From contig NZ_CP059067.1 of assembly GCF_017795745.1 (NCBI RefSeq), forward strand, positions 124,001 through 188,000: a stretch of 64,000 nucleotides of DNA, read 5' to 3'. Positions 31,489 through 57,311 of this stretch are shown piece by piece; position 1 is the stretch's first letter, and every line of letters begins with the position of its first letter. Below the pieces are notes generated by a model. The model was not told the DNA's origin, made no database searches, and was given only the letters and a program-made list of their open reading frames with translations. This DNA is from Rhizobacter sp. AJA081-3. Lineage in GTDB: Bacteria > Pseudomonadota > Gammaproteobacteria > Burkholderiales > Burkholderiaceae_C. Made by a program: the position numbers and the translations under genes.

Positions 31489-31509
31489 TCGCTGCCGCTT
31501 GACACCGGG

Positions 31510-31538
31510 CTGACCCGCCGCGGTCACGATCCGGCCAT
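31510..31538 (+). promoter_or_regulatory. Candidate Pho box before phoD
   Basis: Three heptamers stand with an exact 11-bp period: CTGACCC (31510), CGGTCAC (31521) and CGGCCAT (31532). The last two match the PhoB consensus CTGTCAY at 11 of 14 positions. The array ends 49 bp before the phoD ATG. Confidence 0.4.
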
Positions 31539-31587
31539 CTGCGCTTCCTACGCTCGGGGCCTGTCACCCCACGCAGGAGCGCACGCC

Positions 31588-33228
31588 ATGTCACGACCCA
31601 TCGTCCCATCCCGCCGCGACTTCATCCGCTTCGGTACCGCCGCACTCGGCGGCACCACCTTGCCGCATTGGGCCGTGGCCCAGTCGGCACCGGGCCTCAT
31701 CGCATCGGACGCCACGCGCCCCGCCGCCATGCAGGGCCTGCAGTTCGGCGACCCCTCGCAGGGCGCGACCCTGGTGTGGAGCCGCGCCGACCGGCCCTCG
31801 CGCATGGTCGTCGAGTGGAGCCTGGACCGGCAGTTCCAGCAGGCCACGCGGCTGCTCGGCCCCGATGCGCTGGAGGTCACCGATTTCACCGCGCGGCAGG
31901 ACATCACCGGCTTGCCCGAGAACCGCGAGGTCTTCGTTCGCGTCAGCTTCCAGTCGCTGGCCAACTCGCGCGCCCTGTCCGAGCCGGTCGTCGGCCGCTT
32001 CGTCACGCCGCCCTTCGGGCGCGAGGGCGACGAGGGCTGGCACCGCGGCCATCGCCACGCGACCGACCTGCGCTTCGTCTGGGGCGGTGATACCGCCGGG
32101 CAGGGCTGGGGCATCAACCCGGCTTTCGGTGGCATGAAGATCTACGAGGCGATGCGCCGCCGGCAGCCGCGCTTCTTCATCCACAGCGGCGACACCATCT
32201 ACGCCGACGGCCCGATCCGCGAGTCGGTCGTGGCCGAGAACGGGCAGCCCTGGCAGAACATCGTCACGCCCGAGGTCGCCAAGGTGGCCGAGACGCTGGA
32301 CGAGTTCCGCGGCCGCTACCGCTACAACCTGATCGACGACAACGTGCGCCGCTTCAACGCCGAGGTGCCGCAGATCTGGCAATGGGACGACCACGAGATC
32401 GTCAACAACTGGTCGGGCTCGAAGGACCTGTCGGCCGACACGCGCTACACCGAGAAGAACGTTCCGCTGCTGGTGGCGCGCGGCACGCGCGCCTTCCTCG
32501 ACTACGCGCCGATGCGGCCCTTCGATGCGCGCGAGGCGCAGCGTGTCTACCGCCGCTTCTCCCACGGCCCGCTGCTCGACGTGTTCGTGGTCGACATGCG
32601 CTCCTACCGCGGCCCGAACACCGACAACCTGCAGCCGGTGCCGGGCGCCGACACCGCCTTCCTGGGCCGCGAGCAACTCGACTGGCTCAAGCGCGGGCTG
32701 GACGGTTCGCGCGCCGTGTGGAAGGTGATCGCTGCCGACATGCCGATCGGCCTGAACATCGGCGACGGCAACACCCTCTCTGGCCTGCCGCGCTGGGAGG
32801 CCATCGCCAACGGCAACGCCAGCGGGCCGCTGGGCCGCGAGCTCGAGATCGCCGAGCTGCTGCGATTCATACGCCACCAGCGCGTGCGCAACACCGTGTG
32901 GCTGACCGCCGACGTGCACTACTGCGCCGCCCACTACTACGACCCGCAGCGGGCCGCCTTCAACGACTTCGAGGGTTTCTGGGAGTTCGTGTCCGGCCCC
33001 TTGAATGCCGGCAGCTTCGGGCCCAATACGCTGGACGGCACCTTCGGGCCGCAGGTGGTGTTCTCGAAGGCGCCGCCGGCCGGGCAGGTGAACCTGTCGC
33101 CGCTGGCCGGGCTGCAGTTCTTCGGCGAGGTCAACATCGACGCCCGCAGCGCCGCGCTCACCGTCGACCTGCGCGACTTGGGCGGGGCGTCGGTGTTCAG
33201 CAAGACGCTGGCGCCGCGATTCGGCTGA
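31588..33228 (+). CDS. phoD: PhoD-type alkaline phosphatase
   Basis: This 546-aa exported phosphodiesterase/monoesterase releases phosphate from organic esters; PhoD enzymes use Ca/Fe. A Tat signal is present (SRRDFIRFG, residues 8-16). The N-terminal PhoD_N domain is followed by the catalytic domain with RFVWGGDTAGQGWG, FFIHSGDTIYADGP, QWDDHEIVNNW and WLTADVHYCAAHYY, the metal-site motifs of the family. A ribosome site (GCAGGAG) precedes the ATG. It opens the phosphate-related region, and a candidate Pho box lies upstream. Confidence 0.92.
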   Translation: MSRPIVPSRRDFIRFGTAALGGTTLPHWAVAQSAPGLIASDATRPAAMQGLQFGDPSQGATLVWSRADRPSRMVVEWSLDRQFQQATRLLGPDALEVTDFTARQDITGLPENREVFVRVSFQSLANSRALSEPVVGRFVTPPFGREGDEGWHRGHRHATDLRFVWGGDTAGQGWGINPAFGGMKIYEAMRRRQPRFFIHSGDTIYADGPIRESVVAENGQPWQNIVTPEVAKVAETLDEFRGRYRYNLIDDNVRRFNAEVPQIWQWDDHEIVNNWSGSKDLSADTRYTEKNVPLLVARGTRAFLDYAPMRPFDAREAQRVYRRFSHGPLLDVFVVDMRSYRGPNTDNLQPVPGADTAFLGREQLDWLKRGLDGSRAVWKVIAADMPIGLNIGDGNTLSGLPRWEAIANGNASGPLGRELEIAELLRFIRHQRVRNTVWLTADVHYCAAHYYDPQRAAFNDFEGFWEFVSGPLNAGSFGPNTLDGTFGPQVVFSKAPPAGQVNLSPLAGLQFFGEVNIDARSAALTVDLRDLGGASVFSKTLAPRFG

Positions 33229-33246
33229 CGCAGCGCCGGCGCGACA

Positions 33247-33264
33247 GGGTCACACGGGCGTCAC
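33247..33264 (+). promoter_or_regulatory. Candidate Pho box before plcP-like gene
   Basis: GGGTCAC-ACGG-GCGTCAC has two heptamers 11 bp apart, matching CTGTCAY at 10 of 14 positions. It ends 24 bp before the ATG at 33289, or 45 bp before the in-frame ATG at 33310. Confidence 0.35.
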
Positions 33265-33288
33265 CTGCCGGCATCAGCATCCGGGCTC

Positions 33289-34164
33289 ATGCCGACCGCG
33301 AATGCCCGCATGGACCCCGACGACCCGCCCGGCCACCTGAACGTGCGCACGGTGTGGATCTCCGATCTGCACCTGGGCACGACCGGTTGCCAGGCGCGTG
33401 CGCTGATGGACTTCCTGCGCGATGTCGACTGCGAGACGCTGTACCTCGTGGGCGACATCATCGACGGCTGGCAGCTGCGCCGCTCCTGGTACTGGCCGCA
33501 GGCGCACAACGACGTGGTGCAGAAGATCCTGCGCAAGGCCCGCAAGGGCACGCGCGTGATCTTCGTGCCCGGCAACCACGACGAGTTCGCGCGGCGCTAC
33601 GTGACGCACAGCTTCGGCGGCGTCGAGGTGGCCGAGGAGTGCATCCACGTCACCGCCGACGGCCGCAGGCTCTGGGTCACCCACGGCGACCTGTTCGACG
33701 GCGTGATCCAGTGCGCCAAGTGGCTGGCCTACACCGGCGACGTGGCCTACGAGTTCACGCTCAAGCTCAATCGCTGGTTCAACCGCGCGCGGGCGCACCT
33801 GGGCCTGCCGTACTGGAGCCTGTCGCGCTACCTCAAGCTCAAGGTCAAGCGCGCGGTCAGCTACGTCGGCGACTTCGAGATGGCCGTGGCCCGCGAGGCG
33901 CGCAAGCGCGGCGTGCACGGCGTGGTCTGCGGCCACATCCACCATGCGGAGATCCGCGAGATCGACGGCATCCTCTACTGCAACGACGGCGACTGGGTGG
34001 AGAGCCTGACGGCGCTGGTCGAGCACGCCGACGGGCGGCTGGAGATCATCGATCGCGGCGACACGGTGTGGCGGCCGGCCTCGTCGGCGGCCGTGGAGCC
34101 GGCGCGTCGCCCTGAGCCGGTCGAGCTGCCCGAACCGGCCGTCGTCCGAAGCGCGCTCCCCTGA
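33289..34164 (+). CDS. plcP: Metallophosphoesterase, PlcP-like phospholipase C (LpxH-like fold)
   Basis: The 291-aa protein shows all calcineurin-fold metal motifs: ISDLHLG, GDIIDGW, PGNHDEF, VTHGDLFD and CGHIHHAEI. Proteins of this type are usually labelled UDP-2,3-diacylglucosamine diphosphatase. However, the YWPQAHNDVVQKILRKARKG and YWSLSRYLKLKVK segments resemble PlcP of rhizobia and marine bacteria, which cleaves phosphatidyl head groups to diacylglycerol in phosphate starvation. The neighbours (phoD, and a ugd/glycosyltransferase pair converging from downstream) favour PlcP over LpxH. The start is either 33289 or the Met at 33310, which would put it further from the candidate Pho box. 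Confidence 0.75.
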   Translation: MPTANARMDPDDPPGHLNVRTVWISDLHLGTTGCQARALMDFLRDVDCETLYLVGDIIDGWQLRRSWYWPQAHNDVVQKILRKARKGTRVIFVPGNHDEFARRYVTHSFGGVEVAEECIHVTADGRRLWVTHGDLFDGVIQCAKWLAYTGDVAYEFTLKLNRWFNRARAHLGLPYWSLSRYLKLKVKRAVSYVGDFEMAVAREARKRGVHGVVCGHIHHAEIREIDGILYCNDGDWVESLTALVEHADGRLEIIDRGDTVWRPASSAAVEPARRPEPVELPEPAVVRSALP

Positions 34165-34201: not shown

Positions 34202-35575
34202 TCAGGCGGCGAGCGGCTCGTCGCGGGGTTCGATACGTGCCGCCAGACGGTTCTCGCCCCGGCCGATACCGAGGTACTCGAAGCCGTGGCGTGCCATCAG
34301 CTCCGGCTCGAAAAGATTGCGTCCGTCGAAGACTATAGGTGTCTGCATGGCGTGACGGAGCCGTTCGAAATCCGGGCTGCGGAACTCGCGCCACTCGGTC
34401 ACCACCAGCAGCGCGTCGGCACCGTCGGCTGCGGCGTAAGGCGAGTCGACCAGTTGGAGCCTTTCCGGCACGCCGTGGCGAGCCGCGTAGGCCGGCATGG
34501 CCACGGGATCGAAGGCCCTGACCACGGCGCCGCGTGCCAGCAGCTCATCGATCAGCACCAGGCTCGGCGCCTCGCGCAGGTCGTCGGTGCCGGGCTTGAA
34601 TGCCAGACCCCACAACCCGAAGGCGCGGCCGCGCAAGTCGGCGCCGAAGCGTGCGACGACGCGTTCCGACAGCAACCGGCGCTGGCCGTCGTTGACCGAC
34701 TTCACCGCGCCGAGCAGAGACATGTCCAAGCCGGCTTCCAGTCCCATGCGCTGCAAGGCCTTCACGTCCTTGGGCAGGCAGGAGCCGCCCCAGCCGCAGC
34801 CGGCATACAGGAAGTGCGTGCCGATGCGCGGATCGCTGCCGATGCCCTGGCGGACCAGCTCGATGTCGGCGCCCAGTCGCTCGGCCAGCGCAGCCATCTC
34901 GTTCATGAAGCTGATGCGGGTGGCCAGCATCGCATTGGCAACGTACTTCGTGAGCTCTGCGCTGCGTACGTCCATCAGGAACAGGCGCTCGTGGTTGCGC
35001 TGGAAGGGCGCATAGAGCGCACGCATCAGCAGGGTCGCCTGCTCGTCGTCCGCGCCGACCACGATCCGGTCGGGGCGCATGAAGTCTTCGATGGCCGCGC
35101 CTTCCTTCAGGAACTCCGGGTTCGACACCACGGCGAAGGGCAGCACGGCCGCGCGCCGGCGCAGTTCCGTTTCGATCGCAGTGCGTACGCGCTCGGCCGT
35201 GCCCACCGGCACCGTGCTCTTGTCGACGACCACCTTGTAGTCGTGCATGTGCTGCCCGATCGTCGCGGCAGCCGCCAGGACATGTTCCAGGTCGGCCGAG
35301 CCATCTTCGGCCGCCGGCGTGCCGACGGCGATGAACACGATCGTGCCGTGTTCGACCGCCATCGCTGCGTCGGTGGTGAACTGCAAGCGGCCGCTGGCCG
35401 CGTTGCGCTGCACCAGTTCGGCCAAGCCGGGCTCATGGATGGGCATCTCGCCGCGCTGCAGGCCGGCGACACGTTCTGCGTCGATGTCGAGGCAGGCGAC
35501 GCTGTTGCCCATCTCCGCCAGGCAGGCGGCCGTGACCAGACCGACGTAGCCGGCACCGAAGACCGAGACCTTCAT
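34202..35575 (-). CDS. ugd: UDP-glucose 6-dehydrogenase
   Basis: This 457-aa NAD-dependent enzyme oxidises UDP-glucose twice to UDP-glucuronate. The N-terminal Rossmann motif is [36 protein letters not shown] is present, and the catalytic C266 lies in [12 protein letters not shown] (family form GGSCFPKD). Its ATG overlaps the stop of the glycosyltransferase gene by four bases, so the two proteins are made together. This suggests the UDP-glucuronate is meant for that glycosyltransferase rather than for general polysaccharide synthesis. Confidence 0.95.
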
Positions 35576-36741
35576 GAGAGCGCTCCAGAGGGTTGGGGGA
35601 GGCTGGGCAGACGCTGCGGCACGGCAGCGTGCACCAGCAGAGACGACAGGATCTCGGGGACTTCGAACACCGCGCGGTTGTCGATCGCCCGCACACGCCG
35701 GCGCAGTTCAGGCAGCTCGGCGAGCACGGCATCCACCGCCGCCGGCAGGGCCGCCACCGAGCGCACGACGCGGCCCACACCCTGGTCGACGACCCAGCGT
35801 GTGTTGAAGCGCTCCTGCGGCATCGTCCAGGCATTCGAGAACGTGATGACCGGCAGGCCCATGTGCACCGCCTCGCTCAGGCTGCCCGGGCCGGGCTTGC
35901 CGATGAAGTAGTTCGCCAGCGCCATGTGGCGGCCCACCTCGGGCGTGAAGCCGACAACGGCGTGCGGGGCGCCGCGGCGCAGCTTGCGCAGGCGCTGCGC
36001 CAGCACCTCGTTGTGGCCGCACATCAGGATCAGCTGCTGCTCGCCGAGCAGCCGGGCGATCTTGAGGATCTGCATCGATCCCTGACCGCCGAACAGCACC
36101 AGGCCCGTGGGCCGCGACGGGTCCAGGCCGAGCGCGCCGAGTCCGGCCTCGCGATCGACCGGCGCGCCGCGGTAGAAGGCGGGGCGCAGGATCATGCCGC
36201 TGGTCAGCGAAAGCTGCGTGTCGCCGAATCCGGCCTCGCGGGCCTGCTGCAGCGCGCGCTCGCTGCCGCACACCAGGTGCTGCTGCTGGCCGGGTTCGAT
36301 CCAGAAATGCGGCGGGTGGTCCGCCATGTCGGTCAGCACCGTGACGAAAGGCACCCCGGGCAAGGTTGACGCCAGCGACTCGTACAGCGCGCGGTTGAAG
36401 TTCGGGATCAGCGAGACCACCAGGTCGGGCTCGCTGCACAGCCAGTGCTGCTGCAGCGTGCGCATCAGCGAGGCATGTGCCAGCCGGATCATGCCCTGCA
36501 GCAGCTTGAGCTCCTGCGCGAGGCCGAGCGTCCAGCCGCGCGCGAGCCGCTTGTTGTAGAGGTCTTCCGGGTCCATGCCGGTGACGCGGCGAAAGCGGCC
36601 GGCCGGATCGATCACCTCGGTCAGATTGACCAGGCGCACGGTCCAGGGTCTGCGCTGTTCACGGATGACCTCCTGCAGCGCCAGCGCCGCAGCGCGGTGG
36701 CCGCCGCCGGCGTTGAAGTACACGAGATCGATCGTCGTCAT
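35572..36741 (-). CDS. MGDG-synthase-like (GT28) glycosyltransferase, Agt-like
   Basis: The 389-aa product starts [23 protein letters not shown]; the NAGGGHRAA stretch is the start of MGDG-synthase-type lipid glycosyltransferases. Further features are [48 protein letters not shown] and the donor-site region [17 protein letters not shown]. The family adds sugar to diacylglycerol. In Mesorhizobium and marine bacteria Agt makes glucosyl- and glucuronosyl-diacylglycerol during phosphate limitation. Four-base overlap with ugd points to UDP-glucuronate as donor (inference). The Met at 36741 is preferred over 36780. It lies 66 bp after psd. Confidence 0.85.
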
Positions 36742-36807
36742 GGCGTGGCCGATGCTCGGTGCCGTGCATGACCCGGCCATGAAGTTCGCGCGACAGTCTC
36801 GTGACTC

Positions 36808-37680
36808 TCAGCGGACCGCCGGCATGCGCATCAGAGGCTGACCCATGCGGATGTGCGTGCCGCTGCCGATGCCTTCGGCCAGCAAGAAGCCCCGCGGGGC
36901 GAACACGATGATCGTCGAGCCGTGTTCGAACCAGCCCAGCTCCTTGCCCTTGGCGACGGCGGTGTCGCAGGGCATCTCGTTGGGCCCGCGGTAGCGCAGG
37001 TGCAGCAGCACGTCGAGAAAGTGCAGGCGCAGGCTCGCCACCAGGATGGCGGCCACCGGCACGATGGCGAGTTGATGCCCGCCGCGGGCGAGCCGCAGTC
37101 GCAGCACGGCGCGCTCGTTGCGGCAGAACAGCCGTTCCACCCGCGCCAGTGCGATGGGATTGACGTTCCAGGTGTCGCCGCTGAGGTAGGTGACATGCTC
37201 GATGCGGCCGTCGTGCGGCGCATGGAAGCGGTGGTACATCGCCGAAGTCAGGCGCAGCGTGACGTAGACGCCGTCGTGAAACGGCGTCGCGTCCTGGGTC
37301 GGTCCGAACAGCTCGCCGATCTCGTACGGGAAGCCCTTGGCCTGGAACACACGCGTGCCGGCCACCTCGCCGCAGGCGCCGACGATGGCGTCGCAGGGAC
37401 TGATCAGCACGTCCGGGTCCGTGGTGATCGGCCGCGCGCCCTCGACCAGTTCGCGGGTGAAGCAGTCGTGCAGGCTGTCGAAGCGCTGCTGCTTCGCCTC
37501 GCTCAGGTCGAGGTCAGTGAACAGGCGCCACACCGCGATCGACACGCGCGCCAGCCATCGGTTCTCGATGCGGCTGAAGCGGCCCGTCAGGCGAGTCAGC
37601 AGGATGCGCGGTACGCGGTTGGTGAGCAGGAAGTTGAGATCCTCCTGTTGAAAGAATCGGCGCAAGGCAGTCAGTTTCAT
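36808..37680 (-). CDS. psd: Phosphatidylserine decarboxylase
   Basis: This is a 290-aa membrane-associated pyruvoyl enzyme precursor that converts phosphatidylserine to phosphatidylethanolamine. The self-cleavage site is the GST motif at 254-256 (S255 becomes the pyruvoyl group), in FEHGSTIIVFAPRG; the usual leading Leu of LGST is His here. The proteolytic residues D97 (SPCDAIVG) and H153 (YHRFHAPHDGRI) are present. The Met at 37680 gives the family start MKLTALRRFFQQEDLNFLLTNRVPR. It heads the psd-GT-ugd operon. Whether it supplies bulk phosphatidylethanolamine or serves a special lipid pathway is not visible. Confidence 0.93.
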   Translation of the reverse strand: MKLTALRRFFQQEDLNFLLTNRVPRILLTRLTGRFSRIENRWLARVSIAVWRLFTDLDLSEAKQQRFDSLHDCFTRELVEGARPITTDPDVLISPCDAIVGACGEVAGTRVFQAKGFPYEIGELFGPTQDATPFHDGVYVTLRLTSAMYHRFHAPHDGRIEHVTYLSGDTWNVNPIALARVERLFCRNERAVLRLRLARGGHQLAIVPVAAILVASLRLHFLDVLLHLRYRGPNEMPCDTAVAKGKELGWFEHGSTIIVFAPRGFLLAEGIGSGTHIRMGQPLMRMPAVR

Positions 37681-37691: not shown

Positions 37692-37732
37692 TCAAGGCTG
37701 TTAGACAGGCACGGTCGCACCCGGACCCCACC

Positions 37733-39382
37733 ATGGACGAAACATTCGCTCTCTCCGCCCTCGCGCTCGGCGCGCTTGCCTGGACGCTGCCGCGCGCCAA
37801 ACGCCGGCTCGAACTCTCGCGTGCCAAGCACCGCTCGCTGGCCGGGCACTCGCGCATGGCCAAGCGCATTGCCGGGCTGATCCCCGGCTACGCCTACGAC
37901 GAGGAGCGCTTCTTCGGCTCCGACGACGCGCCGCTGGAGGTGCAGGCCAGCCGCCGCGCCGCCTTCCGCCGCCTCTGCGAGGACTTCGCGCAGCGTTTCG
38001 AACGCAGTGCGGCGATGACGGCGCAGGCGCGCGAGGGCCTGTCGGACCTGCAGTTCACCGGCAGCTACCGTGTGCCCTTTCAGTACAGCCCCTACCTGCG
38101 CGAGCACCTGAAGATCGGCGGCTTCCTGCAGTCCTCGTCGGGCGTGACGGTGCAGGACCTGGACGGCAACGTCTTCCACGACCTCACCGGCTCCTACGGC
38201 GTCAACGTGCTCGGCTACGACGCGTACAAGGAGTGCATCGCCCGCGGCGTGGCGGCTGCGCAGGCCCTCGGGCCGGTGCTCGGCGCCTACCACCCGGCGG
38301 TGCTCGACAACGTGCAGCGCCTGCGTGAGATCTCCGGGCTCGACGAGGTCTCGTTCCACATGTCGGGTACCGAAGCGGTGATGCAGGCGGTGCGGCTGGC
38401 GCGCTACCACACGAAGCGCACGCACCTCGTGCGCTTCACGGGCTCGTACCACGGCTGGTGGGAGGACGTGCAGCCCGGCCCGGGCAACCCGCTGCCGCCG
38501 CGCGAGACCTACACGCTCAAGGACATGGACGAGCGCAGCCTGCATGTGCTGCGCACCCGGCGCGACATCGCCTGCGTGCTGGTCAATCCGCTGCAGGCGC
38601 TGCACCCGAACGCCTCGGCCCCGGGGGACTCTTCGCTGGTGGACAGCACGCGCCGCGCCGGCTTCGAGCGCGCGCGCTACACCGAGTGGCTGAAGCAGTT
38701 GCGCGCGGTGTGCAGCGAACGCGGCATCGTGCTGATCTTCGACGAGGTCTTCGTCGGCTTCCGCCTGGCGATGGGTGGCGCGCAGGAGTACTTCGGTGTG
38801 CGCGCCGACATGGTCACCTACGGCAAGACGCTGGGTGGCGGCCTGCCGGTGGGCGTGGTGTGCGGCAAGCGCGACCTGATGAAGCGATTCCGCGAAGAGC
38901 GCCCGGTCGACATCTGTTTCGCGCGCGGCACCTTCAATGCGCACCCCTACGTGATGACGACGATGCGCGCCTTCCTCGAGCGCCTGCAGCGCCCCGAGGT
39001 GCAATCGCTCTACGACGGGCTGGACGAGCGCTGGAACGCGCACGCCGAAGGATTCAACCTTGCCCTCGCCGAAGCCGGCGTGCCGGTGCGCGTGGCCAAC
39101 CTGTCGTCGATCTGGACGGTGCTGTATACCAAGCCGTCGCGCTACAACTGGATGCTGCAGTTCTACCTGCGTGCGCACGGGCTGGCCCTGAGCTGGGTCG
39201 GGACGGGGCGGTTGATCTTCAGCCTGAACTTCAGCGACGACGACATGCGCAACGTGCGCCAGCGATTCGTCGACGCTGCGCTGGACATGCAGGCCGACGG
39301 CTGGTGGTGGGACGACCCCGCGCAGTCCGACCGCGGCATCCGGCGCGGCATCCTGCGCGAGATGCTGCGCCAGCGCTTCTGA
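37733..39382 (+). CDS. Class III PLP aminotransferase/aminomutase with membrane anchor
   Basis: The 549-aa product has a short N-terminal hydrophobic stretch (FALSALALGALAWTL, residues 5-19) and a basic helix. A fold-type I PLP domain from about residue 110 resembles glutamate-1-semialdehyde aminomutase: FHMSGTEAVMQAVRLAR, HGWW, FDEVFVGFR (D337-E338) and the PLP lysine K365 in YGKTLGGGLPVGVVCG. True HemL is about 430 aa and soluble, so this is probably another enzyme. Its place among lipid genes and a weak Pho box suggest a role in an amino-containing lipid or head group (inference). It diverges from psd and converges on the 39391 gene. Confidence 0.82.
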   Translation: MDETFALSALALGALAWTLPRAKRRLELSRAKHRSLAGHSRMAKRIAGLIPGYAYDEERFFGSDDAPLEVQASRRAAFRRLCEDFAQRFERSAAMTAQAREGLSDLQFTGSYRVPFQYSPYLREHLKIGGFLQSSSGVTVQDLDGNVFHDLTGSYGVNVLGYDAYKECIARGVAAAQALGPVLGAYHPAVLDNVQRLREISGLDEVSFHMSGTEAVMQAVRLARYHTKRTHLVRFTGSYHGWWEDVQPGPGNPLPPRETYTLKDMDERSLHVLRTRRDIACVLVNPLQALHPNASAPGDSSLVDSTRRAGFERARYTEWLKQLRAVCSERGIVLIFDEVFVGFRLAMGGAQEYFGVRADMVTYGKTLGGGLPVGVVCGKRDLMKRFREERPVDICFARGTFNAHPYVMTTMRAFLERLQRPEVQSLYDGLDERWNAHAEGFNLALAEAGVPVRVANLSSIWTVLYTKPSRYNWMLQFYLRAHGLALSWVGTGRLIFSLNFSDDDMRNVRQRFVDAALDMQADGWWWDDPAQSDRGIRRGILREMLRQRF

Positions 39383-39390: not shown

Positions 39391-40002
39391 TCAGGACGGG
39401 TGCCGCACGTGCGGCATCGGGTCGATCAGCTCGCCGCGCAGCAGGTGCAGCGGGGCCTTGTGGTAAAGCAGGATGTCGTGGAAGGGGTCGGTGAGGATCT
39501 TCGCCGCCCACACCAGCCCGGTGGCCAGGCTCTGCTGCATCCACAGCTGCAGCACGCGGAACAGCAGGCCGGTGACGCCCAGCGCCAGCCAGGCGATGCC
39601 GACGTCATGCACGAAGGCGTTGAAGCCCACCGCCGGCACGATCAAGCCGAACAGCGAGGGCTCGATCCACAGCACGGCCGGGATCAGCACCCACACGGCC
39701 AGCAGCACGATCTTGCGGCGGATGTTGTAGCCGACCTTGATCTCCTCCTTGTACTCGTCGCTTACCTGGTTGACCTGGTCGAAGCCGCGCGGCTCGAAGA
39801 AAAAATGTCCGGCCTGGCGGCTCGTCATCGACACGCACCAGGCGAGCAGGGCAGCCATCGCCGGATCGACGAAGAGCAGCGCGTAGGCGACCAGGAAGCT
39901 GATCGCGCTGAGCAGATGCAGGCTCTGGTTGATGCGGCTGTGGTGGTAGTAGCGGTGGTCGTCCCAGCGCTGGGTGCGGAGTTCCTGCAGGAAAGCGGTC
40001 AC
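39391..40002 (-). CDS. Small His-rich integral membrane protein, Mpo1/desaturase-like
   Basis: The 203-aa product has about four hydrophobic helices and clustered His residues (DDHRYYHHSRINQSLHLL near residue 14, RQAGHFFFEP near 62, DPFHDILLYHKAPLHLL near 172). The H-x-N-x3-H and GHFFFE pattern recalls the Mpo1/DUF962 family of membrane fatty-acid oxygenases, and in general di-iron membrane hydroxylases. That assignment is tentative. It starts with GTG and is transcribed away from the SqdX-like gene; a good candidate Pho box lies 48 bp upstream. A role in modifying lipid acyl chains during phosphate limitation is a reasonable guess. Confidence 0.68.
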   Translation of the reverse strand: MTAFLQELRTQRWDDHRYYHHSRINQSLHLLSAISFLVAYALLFVDPAMAALLAWCVSMTSRQAGHFFFEPRGFDQVNQVSDEYKEEIKVGYNIRRKIVLLAVWVLIPAVLWIEPSLFGLIVPAVGFNAFVHDVGIAWLALGVTGLLFRVLQLWMQQSLATGLVWAAKILTDPFHDILLYHKAPLHLLRGELIDPMPHVRHPS

Positions 40003-42662: not shown

Positions 42663-42663
42663 C

Positions 42664-50343: not shown

Positions 50344-51170
50344 ACGGATACAACTTCGCCTACCTCGACGAGGGCACGAAGCGGATGATCCGCCGCGCGC
50401 TGCTGAAGGCCGTCGCGATTCCGGGCCACCAGGTGCCGTTCGGCTCGCGCGAGATGCCGCTGGCCTACGGATGGGGCACCGGCGGCATCCAGGTCACGGC
50501 AGCGGTGATCGGGCAGCACGACGTGCTCAAGGTGATCGACCAGGGCTCCGACGACACCACCAACGCCGTCAACATCCGCCGCTTCTTCGCCCGCACCACC
50601 GAGGCCCGGACCACCGAGCGCACGGCGGATGCGACGATCATCCAGACGCGCCACCGCATCCCGGAGCGGCCGCTGACCGAGGCGCAGATCATCGTCTACC
50701 AGGTGCCGCAGCCCGAGCCGCTGTTCAAGCTGGAGGCGCGCCGCCGCGAGACGCTCAAGCTGCACGCCTTCGCCGAGTACGGCCTGATGAACGTGAAGCT
50801 GTACGAAGACATCGCGCAGTGGGGGCGCATCGACACCACCTACGACTACCCGGTGCTGGTGCATGGCCGGCACGTGATGTCGCCCTCGCCGATCCCGAGC
50901 TTCGACAACCCGAAGATGCACCGCATGCCGGCGCTGCAGCTGTTCGGCGCCGGGCGAGAGAAGCGCCTGTATGCCGTACCGCCCTACACCGACGTGAAGA
51001 GCCTGGACTTCGAGGACCACCCCTTCCGCATCGAGCCGCAAGGGCATGCCTGCGAGCTGTGCGGCTGCACCACGAGCTACCTCGACGAGGTGGCGACCGA
51101 CGAAGGCACGACGCTGTGGACATGCTCCGACACCGACCACTGCCGCGAGCAGCAGGAGACGCGCGCATGA
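50340..51170 (+). CDS. phnJ: PhnJ, radical-SAM C-P lyase
   Basis: This 276-aa catalytic subunit cleaves the carbon-phosphorus bond by a radical SAM reaction, yielding 5-phosphoribosyl 1,2-cyclic phosphate and an alkane. The Cys pattern CELCGC (C238, C241) with C262 forms the unusual [4Fe-4S] site. C268 in CSDTDHC matches the E. coli thiyl residue C272, and G29 the glycyl position G32. It overlaps both phnI and phnK by four bases. Confidence 0.96.
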   Translation: MNGYNFAYLDEGTKRMIRRALLKAVAIPGHQVPFGSREMPLAYGWGTGGIQVTAAVIGQHDVLKVIDQGSDDTTNAVNIRRFFARTTEARTTERTADATIIQTRHRIPERPLTEAQIIVYQVPQPEPLFKLEARRRETLKLHAFAEYGLMNVKLYEDIAQWGRIDTTYDYPVLVHGRHVMSPSPIPSFDNPKMHRMPALQLFGAGREKRLYAVPPYTDVKSLDFEDHPFRIEPQGHACELCGCTTSYLDEVATDEGTTLWTCSDTDHCREQQETRA

Positions 51171-51970
51171 ACGAACTTCAGCCTCTGCTGCGCGTGCAGC
51201 AGCTCAGCCACCGCTTTGCCGGCGCTCGCGACGCGGCCGGCCAGACACCGTGGGCGGTGCGCGAGGCCTCGCTCGAGCTGCACCCCGGCGAGGTGCTGGC
51301 CATCGTCGGCGAATCGGGATCGGGCAAGTCCACGCTGCTGAACTGCATCGCCGGGCGGCTGCAGCCCACCGAAGGCCGCGTGCTCTACCGGCGCCGCGAC
51401 GGCCGCGAGTTCGACGTGCATGCCGCCGGCGAACGCGAGCGCCGCGAGCTGGCGCGCACCGAATGGGGCTTCGTCGCGCAGCATGCCCACGAGGGCCTGC
51501 GCATGAACGTGAGCGCCGGCGCGAACGTGGGCGAGCGCCTGATGGGGCAGGGCGAGCGGCGCTACGCCACGCTGCGCGACACGGCCATGCGCTGGATGGA
51601 CCGCGTCGAGCTCGACCCGGCGCGGCTGGACGACTCGCCGCGCGACTTCTCCGGCGGCATGCGCCAGCGCCTGCAGATCGCGCGCAACCTGGTGACGCGC
51701 CCGCGCCTGGTGCTGATGGACGAGCCGACGTCGGGGCTGGATGTCTCGGTGCAGGCCCGCCTGCTCGACTTGATCCGATTGCTCGTCGGCCGGCTGCACC
51801 TGTCGGCGCTGGTCGTGACGCACGACCTCGGCGTGGCGCGGCTGCTGGCGCACCGCACGCTGGTGATGCGCCAGGGCCGCATCGTCGAGCAGGGGCTGAC
51901 GGACCGGGTGTTCGACGACCCGCAGCATCCCTACACGCAGTTGCTCGTCTCGTCGGTGGTGTCGGCATGA
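51167..51970 (+). CDS. phnK: PhnK, ATPase subunit associated with the C-P lyase complex
   Basis: This 267-aa ABC-type ATPase docks on the PhnGHIJ core rather than on a membrane permease. Walker A is [16 protein letters not shown], the signature FSGGMRQRLQIARNL, and Walker B LVLMDEPTSGLD. The C-terminal DDPQHPYTQLLVSSVV resembles oligopeptide transporter ATPases, as is usual for PhnK. Its stop overlaps the phnL start. Confidence 0.93.
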   Translation: MNELQPLLRVQQLSHRFAGARDAAGQTPWAVREASLELHPGEVLAIVGESGSGKSTLLNCIAGRLQPTEGRVLYRRRDGREFDVHAAGERERRELARTEWGFVAQHAHEGLRMNVSAGANVGERLMGQGERRYATLRDTAMRWMDRVELDPARLDDSPRDFSGGMRQRLQIARNLVTRPRLVLMDEPTSGLDVSVQARLLDLIRLLVGRLHLSALVVTHDLGVARLLAHRTLVMRQGRIVEQGLTDRVFDDPQHPYTQLLVSSVVSA

Positions 51971-52725
51971 ACGGCGCCCCGATGGCCGCGCCCGTGCTCG
52001 AAGCCCGAGGCGTGCACAAGCACTTCACGCTGCACCTGCGCGACGGCCTGCGCCTGCCGGTGCTCGACCGCATGGACCTGCAGGTCCATGCCGGCGAGTG
52101 CGTGGCGCTGGTCGGCCCCTCGGGCCGCGGCAAGTCGACGCTGATGAAGTGCCTGTACGGCAGTTACGCCGTCGATGCGGGCGAACTCTGGCTGCAGCGC
52201 GAAGACGGGCAGCGCGTCGACCTCGCCGCCGCCGCGCCACGCGAACTGATCGCGCTGCGCCGGCGCGAGATCGCCTACGTGAGCCAGTTCCTGCGCGCGC
52301 TGCCGCGGCAGGCGGCGCTCGATGCGGTGGCCGAGCGGCTGCTGCAGGCGGAGCCCGCCGATCCCGAGGCCGATGCTGACCCGCTCGACGACACGCCGTA
52401 CATGGCAGCGCTTGAAGCCGCACGCGAACAGGTGCGCGCGCTGTTCTCGCGGCTGAACCTGCCCGCCGGGCTGTGGGGCCTGCCGCCGGCGACCTTCTCC
52501 GGCGGCGAGCAGCAACGCGTGAACATCGCGCGCGGCTTCATCCTGCCGGCGCGGCTGCTCTTGCTCGACGAGCCCACCGCCTCGCTGGATGCGGCCAACC
52601 GCCGCGTGGTGATCGAGCTGATCCGCGAGGCCAAGCAGCGCGGCAGCGCCATCGTCGGCATCTTCCACGACGAGGAGGTCCGGGACGCCGTGGCCGACCG
52701 CCGCGTCGATTTCGGCACCGCCTGA
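51967..52725 (+). CDS. phnL: PhnL, ATPase subunit of the C-P lyase system
   Basis: This 252-aa ABC-type ATPase binds with PhnK to the core complex. Walker A is GPSGRGKSTLMKCLYG, the signature FSGGEQQRVNIARGF, and Walker B LLLLDEPTASLD. IAYVSQFLRALPRQ and IVGIFHDEEVRDAVADR are typical of PhnL. It overlaps phnK by four bases. Confidence 0.93.
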   Translation: MNGAPMAAPVLEARGVHKHFTLHLRDGLRLPVLDRMDLQVHAGECVALVGPSGRGKSTLMKCLYGSYAVDAGELWLQREDGQRVDLAAAAPRELIALRRREIAYVSQFLRALPRQAALDAVAERLLQAEPADPEADADPLDDTPYMAALEAAREQVRALFSRLNLPAGLWGLPPATFSGGEQQRVNIARGFILPARLLLLDEPTASLDAANRRVVIELIREAKQRGSAIVGIFHDEEVRDAVADRRVDFGTA

Positions 52726-52743
52726 CCGGCCACGAAAGCCAGC

Positions 52744-53886
52744 ATGAACGAACAGATCTTCACCAACGCCCGTGTGGTGCTCGGCCACGAGGTCCTGCCG
52801 CGCGGCACGGTGCGCGTGGTCGACGGCGTCATCGCCTCGGTCGATGCCGGCGCCAGCCAGGTGGCCGGGGCGATCGATCTCGAGGGCGACCTGCTGCTGC
52901 CCGGGCTCGTCGAGGTGCACACCGACAACCTCGAGCGCCACGTGATGCCGCGCCCCAAGGTGAGCTTCCCGATGCGCGCGGCGATGCAGGCCCACGATGC
53001 CGAGCTCGCCTCGGCGGGCATCACCACGGTGCTCGACGCCATCGGCGTCGGCGACCCGTACGGCGACGGCTTCCGCTCGCGCGATCAGAGCGCCCTGCTC
53101 GAGGTGCTCGACCAGCTCGAGGCGGCCGGCGCGCTGCGCAGCCAGCACCTGATCCACGTGCGCTGCGAGCTGCCGGCACCGAATGCGCTGGAACTGTTCG
53201 AGCCCTTCGCCGGCCACCGCCGGCTGCGCCTGATCTCGCTGATGGACCACACGCCGGGCCAGCGCCAGTGGACCGACATCGAGCATGCGCGAATCTACTA
53301 CACCGGCAAGAAGGGCTGGAGCGACGCGAAGTTCGCCGAGGAGATGCGCATCGCCCCGCAGCGCCAGGCGCAGTATGCACAGCCGCACCGGGCCTGGTTC
53401 GCCGACTTCGCGCGCGAGCATGGCGTGGCACTGGCCACGCACGACGACACGACGCTGGCGCATGTCGACGAGGCACGCGAAATGGGGGCGTCGATGAGCG
53501 AGTTCCCGACCACGCTGGAGGCGGCGCGCCATGCGCATCGCCATGGCCTCAAGACGATCGCCGGCGCGCCGAACGTGGTGCGCGGCGGTTCGCATTCGGG
53601 CAACGTGGCGGCCATCACGCTGGCGCGTGAAGGCGTGCTCGACGGCCTGTCGTCGGACTACGTGCCGGGCAGCCTGCTGCAGGCGGCCTGGTGCCTGCAC
53701 CGCGACGCCGGGTTCTCGCTGCCGGAGGCGATGCAGGTGGTCAGCCGCGGGCCGGCCGAGGCGGCCGGCCTGCACGACCGCGGCCGCATCGAGCCGGGGC
53801 AACGCGGCGACCTGGTGCGCGTGCGCGAACTCGATGCGCACCCGGTGGTGCGCTCGGTCTTCGTCGCCGGCGAGCGTGTCGCCTGA
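52744..53886 (+). CDS. phnM: PhnM, ribose-phosphonate triphosphate pyrophosphohydrolase
   Basis: This 380-aa amidohydrolase-fold enzyme removes pyrophosphate from ribose-phosphonate triphosphate before PhnJ acts. Family features are LPGLVEVHTDNLERHVMPRP (metal ligands in HTDNLERH), LMDHTPGQRQW, ATHDDTTLAHVDEAREMGASMSEFPTTLEAA and GAPNVVRGGSHSGNVAA. It is the last gene of phnGHIJKLM and converges on the HD-domain gene with a 19-bp gap. Confidence 0.95.
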   Translation: MNEQIFTNARVVLGHEVLPRGTVRVVDGVIASVDAGASQVAGAIDLEGDLLLPGLVEVHTDNLERHVMPRPKVSFPMRAAMQAHDAELASAGITTVLDAIGVGDPYGDGFRSRDQSALLEVLDQLEAAGALRSQHLIHVRCELPAPNALELFEPFAGHRRLRLISLMDHTPGQRQWTDIEHARIYYTGKKGWSDAKFAEEMRIAPQRQAQYAQPHRAWFADFAREHGVALATHDDTTLAHVDEAREMGASMSEFPTTLEAARHAHRHGLKTIAGAPNVVRGGSHSGNVAAITLAREGVLDGLSSDYVPGSLLQAAWCLHRDAGFSLPEAMQVVSRGPAEAAGLHDRGRIEPGQRGDLVRVRELDAHPVVRSVFVAGERVA

Positions 53887-53905: not shown

Positions 53906-54502
53906 TCAGGCGAGGTCGGTGGCGCCGATGCCGGTCAGCGAGTCGGTGAAGGGCCGCTCGCGCACGTCTTCCAGCAGCGCGAGGTAGTACGCCAGCGAGG
54001 GCGTCGGCTTGCCCGGCTGCTTGGCCAGGTCGTCCCAGCGGCGCAACTGCACCGCATCACGGGCGAAAGGCAGCGCCTCGAAGCGGTCGATCTCGTCGTC
54101 GCTCATCGCACCGCCCTGCAAGGCCAGCGAATGCAACGACGCGGGCGACAGCTGCCTGGCGTAGTGCGGGTCGACGCGAACGAGGAAACGCTTCGCCTCG
54201 ACGTGCAGGCGCACCGGCTCGGTCACTGACTCGTCGAAGCCCGCCGAGAGAAAGGGGATGGCCAGCAGCTCATGGCGGTCATCGACCCGGTCCGAGCGGG
54301 CGATCGCCTCGGCGGCGAGGAAGTGCCCCACGTCGTGCAGAAACGCGGCGGCCACCAGCGACTCGTCCGCATTCGCCCACTCGGCGAGCTGCGCGCACTG
54401 CAGCGCGTGCGCGAGTGCGCTGATGGCCTCGCGCCGCGCGCCCTCGTAGGGCACATGGCCATGGGCCGCGAAGAGCTGCTCGATGCGCCCGGTGAGATCC
54501 AT
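53906..54502 (-). CDS. PhnZ-like HD-domain protein of phosphonate metabolism
   Basis: This 198-aa HD-domain protein has SALAHALQCAQLAEWANADESLVAAAFLHDVGHFLAAEA (His-Asp pair near residue 53), then VRLHVEAKRFLV. This arrangement matches the phosphonate-operon HD family that includes the di-iron oxygenase PhnZ, which cleaves hydroxylated 2-aminoethylphosphonate. No PhnY dioxygenase is in the window, so the substrate may differ. It follows phnE by 17 bp as last gene of a phnC-phnD-phnE-HD operon. Confidence 0.82.
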   Translation of the reverse strand: MDLTGRIEQLFAAHGHVPYEGARREAISALAHALQCAQLAEWANADESLVAAAFLHDVGHFLAAEAIARSDRVDDRHELLAIPFLSAGFDESVTEPVRLHVEAKRFLVRVDPHYARQLSPASLHSLALQGGAMSDDEIDRFEALPFARDAVQLRRWDDLAKQPGKPTPSLAYYLALLEDVRERPFTDSLTGIGATDLA

Positions 54503-54519: not shown

Positions 54520-55326
54520 TCAGATGAGGCGCTTGCGCACCTGCGCCGACAGCACGTCGATCACCGAGACCGACACCACCAGCATGATCAGCACCGCCGC
54601 GGTCTCGGCGTACTGGAAACCGCGGATCACGTCCCACAGCACCATGCCGATGCCGCCCGCGCCGACCATGCCCACCACCGAGGCCGAGCGCACGTTGGAT
54701 TCGAAGCGGTACAGCGCGTAGGAGATCCACAGCGGCATCACCTGCGGGATCACGCCGAAGACGATCTCGGCCAGCGGGTGCGCGCCGGTGGCGCGGATGC
54801 CTTCGACGGGCTGCGGGTCGATCGTCTCGACTGCCTCGGAGAACAGTTTGGCGAGCACCCCGGTGGTGTGGATCCACAGCGCCAGCACGCCGGCGAAGGG
54901 CCCGAGCCCGACCGCGACGACGAACAGCAGCGCGAACACCATCTCGTTGATCGCGCGGCAGGCGTCGAGGAGCCGGCGCACCGGCTGATGGATCCACCAG
55001 GGCGTGATGTTGCTGGCCGCCAGCAGCGCCAACGGCACCGAGCAGAGAATGGCCAGCGCGGTGCCCCACAGAGCGATCTGCAGCGTGATCACCAGCTCGG
55101 ACAGGTAGTGGCGCCAGTCGGCAAAGTCGGGCGGAAAGAAGCCCTGCGCGTACTGCGCCATGTTGCCGGCATCGCGCAGCAGGTCCAGCGGGCGCATGTC
55201 GGCGCCGCGCCAGCTGCCTGCCAGGATGGCCAGCAGAAGCCCCCAGCCGAGCAGCGCCGGCCACTGCGTTCCGGGCTGGGCGGGCGTGACGCTGCGCGGC
55301 AGCGTCGGCAGGCTGGTCGAACTCAT
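54520..55326 (-). CDS. phnE: PhnE, phosphonate ABC transporter permease
   Basis: This 268-aa inner-membrane permease has about six hydrophobic helices, the EAA-type loop ([34 protein letters not shown]) and [27 protein letters not shown], typical of PhnE. Only one PhnE is present, so the permease is probably a homodimer. The Met at 55326 is chosen, 13 bp after phnD. Confidence 0.92.
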
Positions 55327-55339
55327 GCTGGCCGCTGCC

Positions 55340-56314
55340 TCACTTCGCGGCGCTGGCCACCTGGCGGCCCAGTTCGGCCAAGCGGGCGTCGATGTCCTTG
55401 AGCTTGCGCGCCTTCTCCTCGGCCGAGATCGTCGTGTCGGCTTCCACCTTGCCGCGCTCGCCGGCCAGGGCGAGCTGGCGGATCGGCAGCAGCTGGTCGT
55501 TGCTGGAGGCGATGAAACCACCGATCGTCAGCTTGGCGAGGATCTCCTTCTCGCGCGCTTCCTTGCCGTAGGCGAGGAAGAAGTCCTTCACCTTCTGCTT
55601 GGCGTCGGCGTCGAGGTCCTTGCGCCAGGCCATCGGGTCGCTGGCGATCTGCGGCGAGCGCCAGACCACGCGCAACTCGGCGTGTTTCTCCGGCAGCTTG
55701 ATCTTCATGCGGTCGACGCCGTCGCTGGCCACGGTGGCCACGTCGATCTGCCGGCTGGCCACCGCGAGGATGTTGGTCTCGTGGTTGGCGCGCACGGTGC
55801 GCTTGAAGTCCTTCACCGGGTCGACGCCGTTCTGGGCGAAGGCGTAGTAGCCGGGCACCAGCGCGCCGCTGGTCGAGTTCGGATCGCCGAAGCCCAGCGT
55901 CAGCTGCTGGCGGTCCTTCAGCACGTCCTGCAGGGTCTGCAGCTTGCTGTCCTTGTGGACGATCATCAGGCTCCAGTAGCCGGTGCCGCCGTCGGGCTGG
56001 GTCATGCGGGCGAAAACTTCGGCGCCGGCGCGGTCCACCGCTTCCATGGCCGACTTGTTGCCGAACCAGGCCACCTGCACCTTGTTGAAGCGCATGCCTT
56101 CGATGATGCCGGCGTAGTCGGTCGAGAAGAAGGCGTTCACCTTGTAGCCGGTGACCTTCTGCATGTCGTCCAGCAGCGGCTGCCAGGTGCTCTTCAGGTT
56201 GGCCGACGACTCCGTCGAAATGATGCCGAAGCTGAGTTCCTTCTGCTGTGCTCCGGCGGTGCTGGCGAAGGCGAGCCCGGCCGCGAGGCCGAGCGTGGTG
56301 ATCCAGGTCTTCAT
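55340..56314 (-). CDS. phnD: PhnD, phosphonate-binding periplasmic protein
   Basis: This 324-aa exported binding protein has a signal peptide ([23 protein letters not shown]). The mature N-terminus is [35 protein letters not shown]. Family motifs [20 protein letters not shown] (ligand phosphonate contacts) and [13 protein letters not shown] are present. PhnD proteins bind 2-aminoethylphosphonate and sometimes phosphite. It follows phnC by 31 bp. Confidence 0.94.
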
Positions 56315-56345
56315 GTGGGACTCCTCGGGTTGTCTGGAAGCGGAT

Positions 56346-57173
56346 TCAGGCCGCGCGCAGCGCGGGCACGGCCAGCGGCAGCTGGCGTTCGGCGGGGGCG
56401 AACAGCTCGTCGCTCTGCGAGCCGTAAAGCGCGCGAAGGCGTTCCGCGCTCAGCGCGGTGGTGGGCCCGTCGTAGACGACCTCACCGGCGCGCAGCGCGA
56501 TCGTGCGCGGGCAGAAGGCGAACGCGTGTTCGACCTGGTGCAGCGAGACCAGCACGGTCACGCCCAATTCGCGGTTGAGTCCAGCCAGCAGCTCCATCAC
56601 GCAGCGGCTGGAGGCCGGGTCGAGCGATGCGACCGGCTCATCGGCCAGGATCAGCTTGGCTTCCTGCACCAGCGCGCGCGAGATGGCGGCACGCTGCTGC
56701 TGACCGCCGGACAGCGTCGAGGCGCGTTGCCAGGCGCAGCGCTCGATGCCCACGCGATGCAGGGCCTGCCAGGCGCGCTGGCACTCGGCGGGCGGGAAGC
56801 GCCGCGTCATCGCGCGCCACAGCGGCAGCCGGTGCAAGGCACCGGCCATCACGTTGACCATCACCGGCAGGCGATCGACCAGGTTGAACTGCTGGAAGAT
56901 GGCGGCCACGTCGGCGCGCTGTCGGCGAATGTCCGCGGCGAGCACGCCGCCGCGCTGCACCACGCGGTCGAGCACCCGCACCTCGCTGACCGAGCCGGCA
57001 TCGGCGCGATGCAGGCCGTTCAGGTGACGCAGCAGCGTCGACTTGCCGGAGCCCGAGGCGCCGAGCAGCGCCACCATCTCACCGTGCTCGACGCGCAGCG
57101 ACACGCCGCGCAGTGCCGGCTGGCCGCCGAAGCTCTTGCGCAGCGATTCGACCTCGATCGCACAGGGACCCAT
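56346..57173 (-). CDS. phnC: PhnC, phosphonate ABC transporter ATPase
   Basis: This 275-aa ATP-binding subunit has Walker [17 protein letters not shown], the signature [15 protein letters not shown] and Walker [40 protein letters not shown] is typical of PhnC. It is the first gene of the phnCDE-HD operon. A strong candidate Pho box and a PhnF-like site lie within 62 bp upstream. Confidence 0.93.
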
Positions 57174-57199
57174 GGCACGCTCCGTTGGTGGACGGAGCG

Positions 57200-57213
57200 A
57201 TCATCTAGACGTG
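57200..57213. promoter_or_regulatory. Candidate PhnF operator before phnC
   Basis: ATCATCTAGACGTG shares the eleven bases TCATCTAGACG with the phnF-phnG intergenic site read on the opposite strand. It lies between the candidate Pho box and the phnC start, a position suited to repression. Confidence 0.45.
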
Positions 57214-57215
57214 TC

Positions 57216-57233
57216 GTGACGGCCAGATGACGG
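57216..57233 (-). promoter_or_regulatory. Candidate Pho box (minus strand) before phnC
   Basis: On the minus strand the sequence is CCGTCAT-CTGG-CCGTCAC: two heptamers 11 bp apart, matching CTGTCAY at 12 of 14. A third, weaker unit TTGTCGC stands 11 bp upstream (57238-57244). It lies 43 bp before phnC. Confidence 0.55.
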
Positions 57234-57311
57234 TTGCGCGACAAGTCGGCGCGTGCCGGGCATCGAGGCAGCGCGCCGGCTTCAAGCGGGCGTACCCGCT
57301 CGCCGCTCGCC

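Follow-up and report, generated by a model that had tools for sequence, protein, structure and literature searches.

At PhoB-controlled promoters, phosphorylated PhoB binds two 11-bp repeats that replace the -35 element, and recruits RNA polymerase to the -10 element. The present work concerns a putative phosphorus-starvation island of Rhizobacter sp. AJA081-3, located at 31.5-57.3 kb of a 64,000-nucleotide stretch (hereafter, the window) that corresponds to bases 124001-188000 of the single 5.40-Mb contig NZ_CP059067.1; in this island, candidate membrane-lipid genes adjoin genes for phosphonate and phosphite use. The closest described system for the lipid genes is the PlcP-Agt remodelling of Pseudomonas aeruginosa (PA3219, PA3218, PA0842): according to the excerpted text of the source, Pho boxes of the CTGTCATNNNNCTGTCAT type precede its glycosyltransferase genes and plcP, and the sugar donors are UDP-glucose and UDP-glucuronate (PMC8528852). 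The system is also described in marine bacteria. Pho boxes in front of plcP and of glycosyltransferase genes are thus nothing new; the island has such boxes too, together with a PlcP-like phosphoesterase and, as predicted, the same sugar donors. Unlike PlcP-Agt, it contains a GT28-Ugd pair and a separate GT4, and a class III aminotransferase (AT3), a second phosphatidylserine-decarboxylase-like protein (Psd2) and a predicted membrane protein distantly resembling Mpo1 (MPO) do not appear in the PlcP-Agt account as excerpted (PMC8528852). Amino- and glycolipids have also been reported in phosphate-poor fluids, in a paper whose excerpted text does not contain the word "glycosyltransferase" (PMC10667739).

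The phosphonate (phn) part of the island resembles a classical Pho regulon with its phn operon in having a Pho box before phnC and phnG, a phnF-type regulator and the phnGHIJKLM gene order, and differs from it in the location of ptxD within a phnF-DUF1045-phnN unit, in its division into three separate units and in the adjoining lipid genes. As read through general models, gene families and promoters suggest that the island fits PlcP-type remodelling; no PlcP- or Agt-specific model matched in the family scans of its genes. We consider it likely that the island is a PhoB regulon whose core is a pathway for a nitrogen-bearing replacement lipid of which no description was found. The promoter evidence is strong, and lies in the sequence pattern, its conserved spacing and the presence of phoB and phoR; the lipid part draws on families and neighbours, from which we infer substrates, step order and product, with PhoB itself as the presumed binder.

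Pho-type promoters of the island

The initial annotation had pointed to eight sites with two heptamers like CTGTCAY at an 11-bp period, four of them with 12 of 14 matches; the heptamer pairs are present at all eight, with 12/14 matches at 40051, 40095, 44577 and 57216. Two weighted matrices were used to separate such sites from chance, with 381 kb sampled over the 5.40-Mb genome as background and expectations expressed per 25.8 kb. The first, built from the general Pho-box consensus, gave eight matches above its threshold of 12 bits in the island, whereas the remaining 38 kb of the window had none and 0.41 were expected. Its top match in the sampled background (L009:6079-6096; L numbers designate loci) overlaps the beginning of the longest pstS frame; 56 bp further on is an inner ATG, the likelier start. 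The second matrix was learned from 158 sites of relatives, with the window excluded, and was extended to include a -10 element spanning positions +11 to +16 (threshold, 16 bits). Run on the window and the 381 kb, this matrix yielded eight island sites above 16 bits, none in the rest of the window and four in the background (0.27 per 25.8 kb). Of these four, two fall within predicted frames and two, one per direction, in the pstS spacer; no site in the sampled 381 kb scores higher than the pstS promoter.

The sites, with their scores for box plus -10 unless otherwise stated, are as follows:

31521-31538, forward strand: Pho-like site before phoD; 4.1 bits, not above background
33247-33264, forward strand: plcP box, -10 CAGCAT at 33275-33280; 18.7 bits (box alone, 7.0)
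36768-36785, reverse strand: GT28-ugd box, -10 GAGCAT at 36752-36757; 17.1 bits
37674-37691, forward strand: AT3 box, -10 TAGACA at 37702-37707; 26.7 bits, recurring in relatives
40051-40068, reverse strand: MPO box, -10 CACCAT at 40035-40040; 26.8 bits
40095-40112, forward strand: GT4 box with an extra repeat unit at 40084, -10 CACCAT at 40123-40128; 25.4 bits
44577-44594, reverse strand: pyk-lplT site, -10 CAGACT at 44561-44566; 11.9 bits, borderline
48062-48079, forward strand: phnG box, -10 GACACT at 48090-48095; 18.9 bits
48119-48136, reverse strand: phnF box, -10 CAAGAT at 48103-48108; 25.0 bits
57216-57233, reverse strand: phnC box with an extra repeat unit at 57227-57244, -10 GATGAT at 57200-57205; 20.3 bits

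Six of the eight sites first proposed are thus firm (40051, 37674, 40095, 57216, 48062 and 33247), that at 44577 is borderline and that at 31521 finds no support, and two promoters absent from the initial annotation, at 48119 before phnF and at 36768 before GT28-ugd, are added. By unit, eight promoters are predicted members of the regulon, the site before phoD gives no ground for including that gene, and pyk-lplT is borderline. Eight promoters carry TGTCA-type repeats at an 11-bp period, in the sense direction and above background, with the box about 10 bp before the -10 element, where it would replace a -35.

Further evidence comes from relatives. One hundred loci were taken, and four repeating the same contigs (L081, L087, L134 and L114) were dropped, leaving 96 distinct loci. 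When their promoters were aligned on the box (sites of at least 10 bits), five promoter families showed a -10 element between +11 and +16, at positions that the box matrix does not use: A+12 A+15 T+16 in GT4, MPO and plcP, A+12 T+16 in lplT, and T+11 A+12 A+14 in AT3, with A+12 in 85% and T+16 in 62% of the pooled sites. In the window, A+12 is found in all eight sites first claimed, and A+12 plus T+16 in seven of them, compared with 39/798 box-like background sites; the AT3 promoter has the T+11 A+12 A+14 version. The psd/AT3 spacer holds a best site of at least 12 bits in 67/86 loci (15/430 random stretches, 16/430 shuffles) and the MPO/GT4 spacer in 75/88 (27/440 and 23/440, respectively), counted over divergent spacers of up to 700 bp. 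Gene by gene, after setting aside genes with low tblastn scores or close to contig ends, a sense box of at least 12 bits precedes AT3 in 83/94, MPO in 75/93 and GT4 in 71/88 relatives, against 17/480 random stretches. Among genes that contributed no training sites, the figures are 22/45 for lplT, 6/14 for ugd, 2/2 for phnC, 1/2 for phoD and 0/2 for pyk.

The regulators themselves are present in the pst locus of the genome, namely phoB (TIGR02154, 345.8 bits; cut-off, 296.2) and phoR (TIGR02966, 402.3 bits; cut-off, 334.2). Because phoB and phoR accompany pst, the island promoters follow the pstS-like pattern and other genomes have corresponding sites before the lipid genes, the proposal of a single PhoB regulon joining lipid replacement to phosphonate and phosphite use is supported at the level of sequence.

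Several results weigh against this regulatory reading. A plain count of paired CTGTCAY heptamers at the 11-bp period, with up to three mismatches over the whole window, does not exceed chance (13 against an expectation of 12.73, with at least 13 in 53 of 100 shuffles; 11 of the 13 lie within the island), for which reason the weighted matrices were adopted instead. The box of the second matrix, used alone above 12 bits, separates weakly (seven matches in the island, one in the rest of the window, 1.08 expected). Since the general consensus was used to pick the training sites, there is some circularity in the box scores that AT3, MPO and GT4 reach in relatives; it does not affect the -10 test, the results for lplT, plcP and ugd, or the window's own phn sites. 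A sense box of at least 12 bits precedes psd in only 7/93 relatives, GT28 in 1/11 and plcP in 7/36 (19/36 at 10 bits); algP, a neighbouring gene for which no connection to Pho would be expected, has one in 2/8. In the distant loci described below, the AT3 site reaches 12 bits in 7/17 and stays under it in 10/17, with values of 6.8 at most in L180-L184; these weak sites suggest that the AT3, psd and MPO trio is not tied to PhoB everywhere.

Some features of individual promoters deserve mention. The plcP site, though weak as a box, has a complete -10; in relatives, it lies at a median of 24 bp before the start (26 relatives, best site of at least 7 bits), in agreement with its position in the window. 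Only 6 nucleotides separate the -10 from the ATG in GT4 (40123-40137) and 8 in plcP (33275-33291), so these mRNAs may be leaderless; similarly short box-to-start distances are also found in relatives. A strict pattern, TKTCAYNNNNYTKTCAH, occurs three times in the 5.40 Mb (reversed control, 0): once in the AT3 promoter, once at a distance of 30 bp from a DUF47/PhoU-like gene and on the strand opposite to it, and once elsewhere. Elsewhere in the genome, a fasciclin-domain gene divergent from pstS (L009:5484-5960; PF02469, 3.8e-38) has a Pho-type promoter at L009:6005-6038 (18.2 bits).

A conserved lipid block and its phosphonate neighbours

The gene identities proposed by the initial annotation for phoD, plcP, psd-GT-ugd, the aminotransferase, the second glycosyltransferase, pyk/lplT, the phn sets and ptxD were borne out by family scans. 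Outside the island (window positions 1-31400 and 58800-64000), the analysis comprised the prediction of open reading frames, scans with the matrices and a small number of family scans. The genes of the island are the following:

31588-33228, forward strand: phoD-like phosphatase (PF09423, 6.5e-94; PF16655, 6.3e-14)
33289-34164, forward strand: plcP-like metallophosphoesterase (PF12850, 5.3e-14; PF00149, 6.8e-13), PlcP by context
34202-35575, reverse strand: ugd, UDP-glucose 6-dehydrogenase type (TIGR03026, 442 bits, over cut-off; TuaD equivalog model, 477 bits, under its cut-off of 700)
35572-36738, reverse strand: GT28-like glycosyltransferase (NF010135, 4.7e-19; PF04101, 3.1e-7); nearest model, a diglucosyl-diacylglycerol synthase, under cut-off; probable start 36738, longest frame from 36780
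36808-37680, reverse strand: psd2, second phosphatidylserine-decarboxylase-like gene (PF02666, 1.8e-53); probable start at the ATG of 37680, which the Pho box of AT3 overlaps, the open frame extending to 37869
37733-39382, forward strand: AT3, class III aminotransferase (PF00202, 4.9e-33)
39391-40002, reverse strand: MPO, predicted all-helical membrane protein, distantly Mpo1-like (PF06127, weak)
40135-41376, forward strand: GT4 glycosyltransferase (NF053787, 2e-42, 145 bits, cut-off 480); PDB relatives include PimA (4.6e-27)
41397-42662, reverse strand: lplT, lysophospholipid transporter (NF008397, 485 bits, over its cut-off of 297)
42664-44553, reverse strand: pyruvate-kinase-like protein (NF011314, 783 bits, over its cut-off of 642)
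45057-46040, reverse strand: ptxD, phosphite dehydrogenase (solved structure 4e5n, 8.4e-94)
46037-46612, reverse strand: phnN (TIGR02322, 1.6e-39, 135 bits, cut-off 156)
46609-47310, reverse strand: DUF1045 phosphonate-operon protein (PF06299, 168 bits, over cut-off; TIGR03223, 229 bits, cut-off 249)
47307-48062, reverse strand: phnF, GntR-type regulator (TIGR02325, 213 bits, over cut-off)
48130-53886, forward strand: C-P lyase operon, with phnG from 48130, phnH from 48600, phnI from 49264, phnJ from 50340, phnK from 51167, phnL from 51967 and phnM from 52744
53906-54502, reverse strand: PhnZ-like phosphonate HD-domain oxygenase (TIGR03276, 1.2e-63, 213.9 bits, cut-off 214.6)
54520-57173, reverse strand: phosphonate ABC transporter, with phnE at 54520-55326, phnD at 55340-56314 and phnC at 56346-57173

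Within this set, the lipid genes form a unit that recurs in other genomes. AT3 orthologues occur in 37/150 genomes of the family, where a gap between 60% and 33% identity delimits them, and in 24/398 genomes sampled across the phylum. In the 20 relatives fetched from among the 37 AT3-bearing family genomes, psd, AT3, MPO and GT4 stand together in 20/20. Over the 96 distinct loci, matches were found for psd in 93, MPO in 95, GT4 in 92, lplT in 45, plcP in 38, ugd in 14 and GT28 in 11; some of the gaps are contig ends, and a few GT4 matches are other GT4s. Besides these genes, further recurrent groups are present in at most 11 loci. The closest named AT3 records, about 77-78% identical and taken from the best 80 of at least 578, belong to Burkholderiales such as Paucibacter, Scleromatobacter, Piscinibacter and Rubrivivax. 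As judged from gene content and promoters, the lipid block is a conserved unit of Betaproteobacteria-type genomes, mostly with Pho promoters.

The linkage of AT3, psd and MPO extends to 16/17 distant loci, the 17th being a contig of 4.4 kb, too short to tell. The distant GT4 is 50% identical in L179 and 23-34% identical in others, with no match in L181-L184. Most of the distant genomes share only the phylum with the window and are thus probably Alphaproteobacteria; L175-L178 are presumably Bradyrhizobium-like, given a record (L146) of the same layout. In two loci (L189:2719-5382 and L191:6010-8883), near AT3, psd and MPO, GT4 forms the rear part of a fusion protein whose preceding 500 or so residues match no Pfam family, and the 517-residue N-terminal part of the L189 protein gave no sequence match in the PDB. 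L077, L095, L137, L139 and L143 have a second GT4 (32-34% identical) beside plcP, an arrangement like that of PlcP-Agt pairs, with AT3, psd and MPO in the same locus; the matches of L139 include no block GT4.

Among the phosphonate and phosphite genes, PtxD is assigned as phosphite dehydrogenase because of the gap to the next-best enzyme kind, glyoxylate reductase (9e-50), and K76, R237, E266 and H292, which we take to be its active-site residues in the usual numbering, are all kept in the alignment to solved PtxD. PhnG, PhnH, PhnK, PhnL, PhnE and PhnD exceed their NCBIfam cut-offs, as does PhnM with TIGR02318; PhnI and PhnJ match PF05861 (3.5e-150) and PF06007 (6e-139), and phnC, an ABC ATPase match only, is named by its place. 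No PhnY-type partner of the PhnZ-like gene, which lies in the phnCDE unit, was found among the adjacent genes scanned.

The union of both gene sets was a central point of the initial annotation; it is true of this genome and mostly local among relatives, as no more than 3/96 loci (L093, L107 and L158) have three or more phn genes close to the lipid block, judged over a visible flank that does not exceed about 9 kb. Near the block of L086 only the HD gene is present, and L098 has an ABC ATPase match. This rarity identifies the lipid block as the conserved unit and its meeting with phn as mostly local. Whether the 26-kb grouping is an accident, with two independent Pho modules as neighbours, is in our view an evenly balanced question: besides the 3/96 count, close matches to AT3 and to plcP are both absent from the single sampled genome of the same genus, and against accident the neighbourhood does recur in three other loci, and shared regulation could favour the grouping.

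Other observations concern phoD and the pyruvate kinase gene. The phoD-like protein has an RRDF motif near its N terminus, Tat-like by eye, and the genome encodes a second PhoD (L011:7536-9131, 5.1e-100), with two fasciclin-like genes (by eye) nearby. The pyk-like gene directly before lplT encodes a long pyruvate kinase of the PRK14725 type.

A candidate pathway for a nitrogen-bearing lipid

Under low phosphate, PhoB would occupy the island boxes and bring the polymerase to the -10 about 10 bp downstream. The supply arm would then comprise phosphonate uptake, C-P lyase and the oxidation of phosphite by PtxD, and in the saving arm the PlcP-like enzyme would cleave phospholipids to diacylglycerol; phosphorus-free lipids would subsequently be made by GT28, with UDP-glucuronate produced by Ugd, and by GT4. 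The conserved core comprises AT3, Psd2 and MPO, joined by GT4 in this island, and the three would build or modify a nitrogen-bearing phosphorus-free lipid: AT3 would place an amino group onto a keto- or aldehyde-bearing lipid intermediate, Psd2 would decarboxylate an amino-acid-type intermediate to an amine, MPO would be an oxygenase whose target is a carbon of the acyl chain or of the head group, and methylation of the amine by a PmtA-like enzyme would follow in some distant genomes. The substrates of the nearest AT3 relatives are beta-keto or beta-amino compounds, amino-acid groups are decarboxylated by enzymes of the Psd type, and those of the PmtA type add methyl groups to amines; taken together, these chemistries point to a nitrogen-bearing lipid, with the order of steps a guess.

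In AT3, about 125 N-terminal residues precede the part that aligns with solved aminotransferases, and its best match, both by profile (7.1e-62, versus 4.5e-46 for the next kind) and by fold (5.5e-30 versus 3.8e-25), is the aminotransferase domain of mycosubtilin synthase (MycA, 6kfm), from which it differs in being a separate protein with its own N-terminal part, at 28% identity. Its K365, presumably the pyridoxal-phosphate lysine by motif, is invariant in 30/30 sequences, as expected for a predicted MycA-type enzyme. No carrier or ligase was found among the neighbouring genes scanned in the window. A membrane-anchored AT3 was considered and dropped, as a Kyte-Doolittle plot shows no transmembrane stretch. 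Psd2 keeps the GST processing site and MYHRxHAP in 21/21 aligned rows, as in a true Psd; another psd copy of the same genome lies at C1:1504998-1505645.

MPO had been described as a His-rich membrane protein; the gene stands, and its family is now that of a remote Mpo1 relative, by a weak Pfam match. The predicted model (pLDDT 89.7) has six helices of at least 18 residues, and neither a fold search against the PDB (no match under E 0.001) nor a sequence search (one chance-level match, E 0.65) found a relative. Among distant loci, a methyltransferase adjoins MPO in 4/4 of those scanned (L176, L180, L182 and L184), with PmtA as best NCBIfam model (1e-44, 3.7e-40, 7.3e-39 and 2.5e-36, all below cut-off); a hydrolase is also present in L184 and L182, lysophospholipase-L2-like in L184.

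The association with plcP extends to whole genomes. A plcP match at E 1.2e-34 or better is found in 105/150 family genomes, comprising 37/37 of the AT3-bearing and 68/113 of the AT3-lacking ones (Fisher 2e-7, uncorrected for shared descent). The block as a replacement for ornithine lipids was rejected, since an OlsB-family match occurs in 36/37 AT3 genomes and 95/113 others, a weakly positive association (p 0.04, 150 family genomes). Several genomes of the family have plcP at no more than about 1 kb from a gene for an OlsB-family acyltransferase (e.g., G054:C1:569098-570677 and G145:C10:425701-427193), which suggests a plcP-ornithine-lipid unit.

Two of these findings count against the lipid part of the proposal. 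The OlsB-family gene in this genome and in 36/37 AT3 genomes means that a phosphorus-free aminolipid route may already exist. In addition, the link of MPO to Mpo1, a 2-hydroxy-palmitic acid dioxygenase, is weak in all of 21/21 orthologues (best 1.9e-5); that of the window, at 19.4 bits, falls below the Pfam cut-off of 24, and its 203 residues face a 95-position model.

In its most specific form, our proposal is that AT3, Psd2 and MPO constitute an undescribed three-enzyme pathway for a new class of phosphorus-free, amine-bearing membrane lipid. The product may be a stand-in for phosphatidylethanolamine or, with the PmtA-like enzyme, for phosphatidylcholine, while GT4 would either attach a sugar to it or produce a glycolipid in parallel; the pathway would be spread over Betaproteobacteria-type genomes and another class of the phylum, probably Alphaproteobacteria. 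We put this form forward tentatively, with the odds somewhat below even. No description of an aminotransferase-psd-Mpo1 set was found in searches of the open-access literature, subscription papers being outside the coverage.

A less probable though still substantial competitor is ordinary turnover of phosphatidylserine, phosphatidylethanolamine and phosphatidylcholine, in which Psd2 would refill the phosphatidylethanolamine that PlcP and lysophospholipid enzymes consume, AT3 and MPO would degrade freed head groups or acyl chains for phosphorus recycling, and no new lipid would arise. The true-Psd motifs of Psd2 fit this idea, as do the neighbours lplT (45/96), the PmtA-like gene (4/4 scanned) and the lysophospholipase-L2-like gene of L184; it is disfavoured by the psd already present elsewhere in the genome, by the GT4 match that accompanies the trio in 92/96 loci and several distant ones, and by the nearness of AT3 to the mycosubtilin domain.

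That domain, the best match of AT3 in both sequence and fold, belongs to a line of chemistry that yields 3-amino fatty acids, and AT3 might accordingly supply these to a lipopeptide-like or signalling product, with phosphate control as a secondary trait. We regard this as improbable, as the recurrent neighbours are psd, MPO, GT4, lplT, plcP, ugd and GT28, with others in at most 11/96 loci, and AT3 is strictly linked to psd and MPO, and to plcP genome-wide. More improbable still is that the repeats are functionless remnants or are bound by another OmpR/PhoB-type regulator: related response regulators do bind tandem repeats, but the pstS promoter is the top sampled match of the genome, five promoter families share the -10 spacing, and the sites recur before lplT, plcP and both phnC genes seen in relatives.

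Significance for phosphate stress in the family

Remodelling of membranes under phosphate stress sets the minimal phosphorus needed for cell life and alters the cell surface. The matrix combining box and -10 provides a means to spot Pho-regulated genes in high-GC relatives. If the trio of AT3, Psd2 and MPO does make a lipid as yet undescribed, AT3 could serve to trace that lipid, as its marker gene, through genomes and metagenomes, and its identity could be tested directly in cultivable genera such as Curvibacter, Limnohabitans and Hydrogenophaga.

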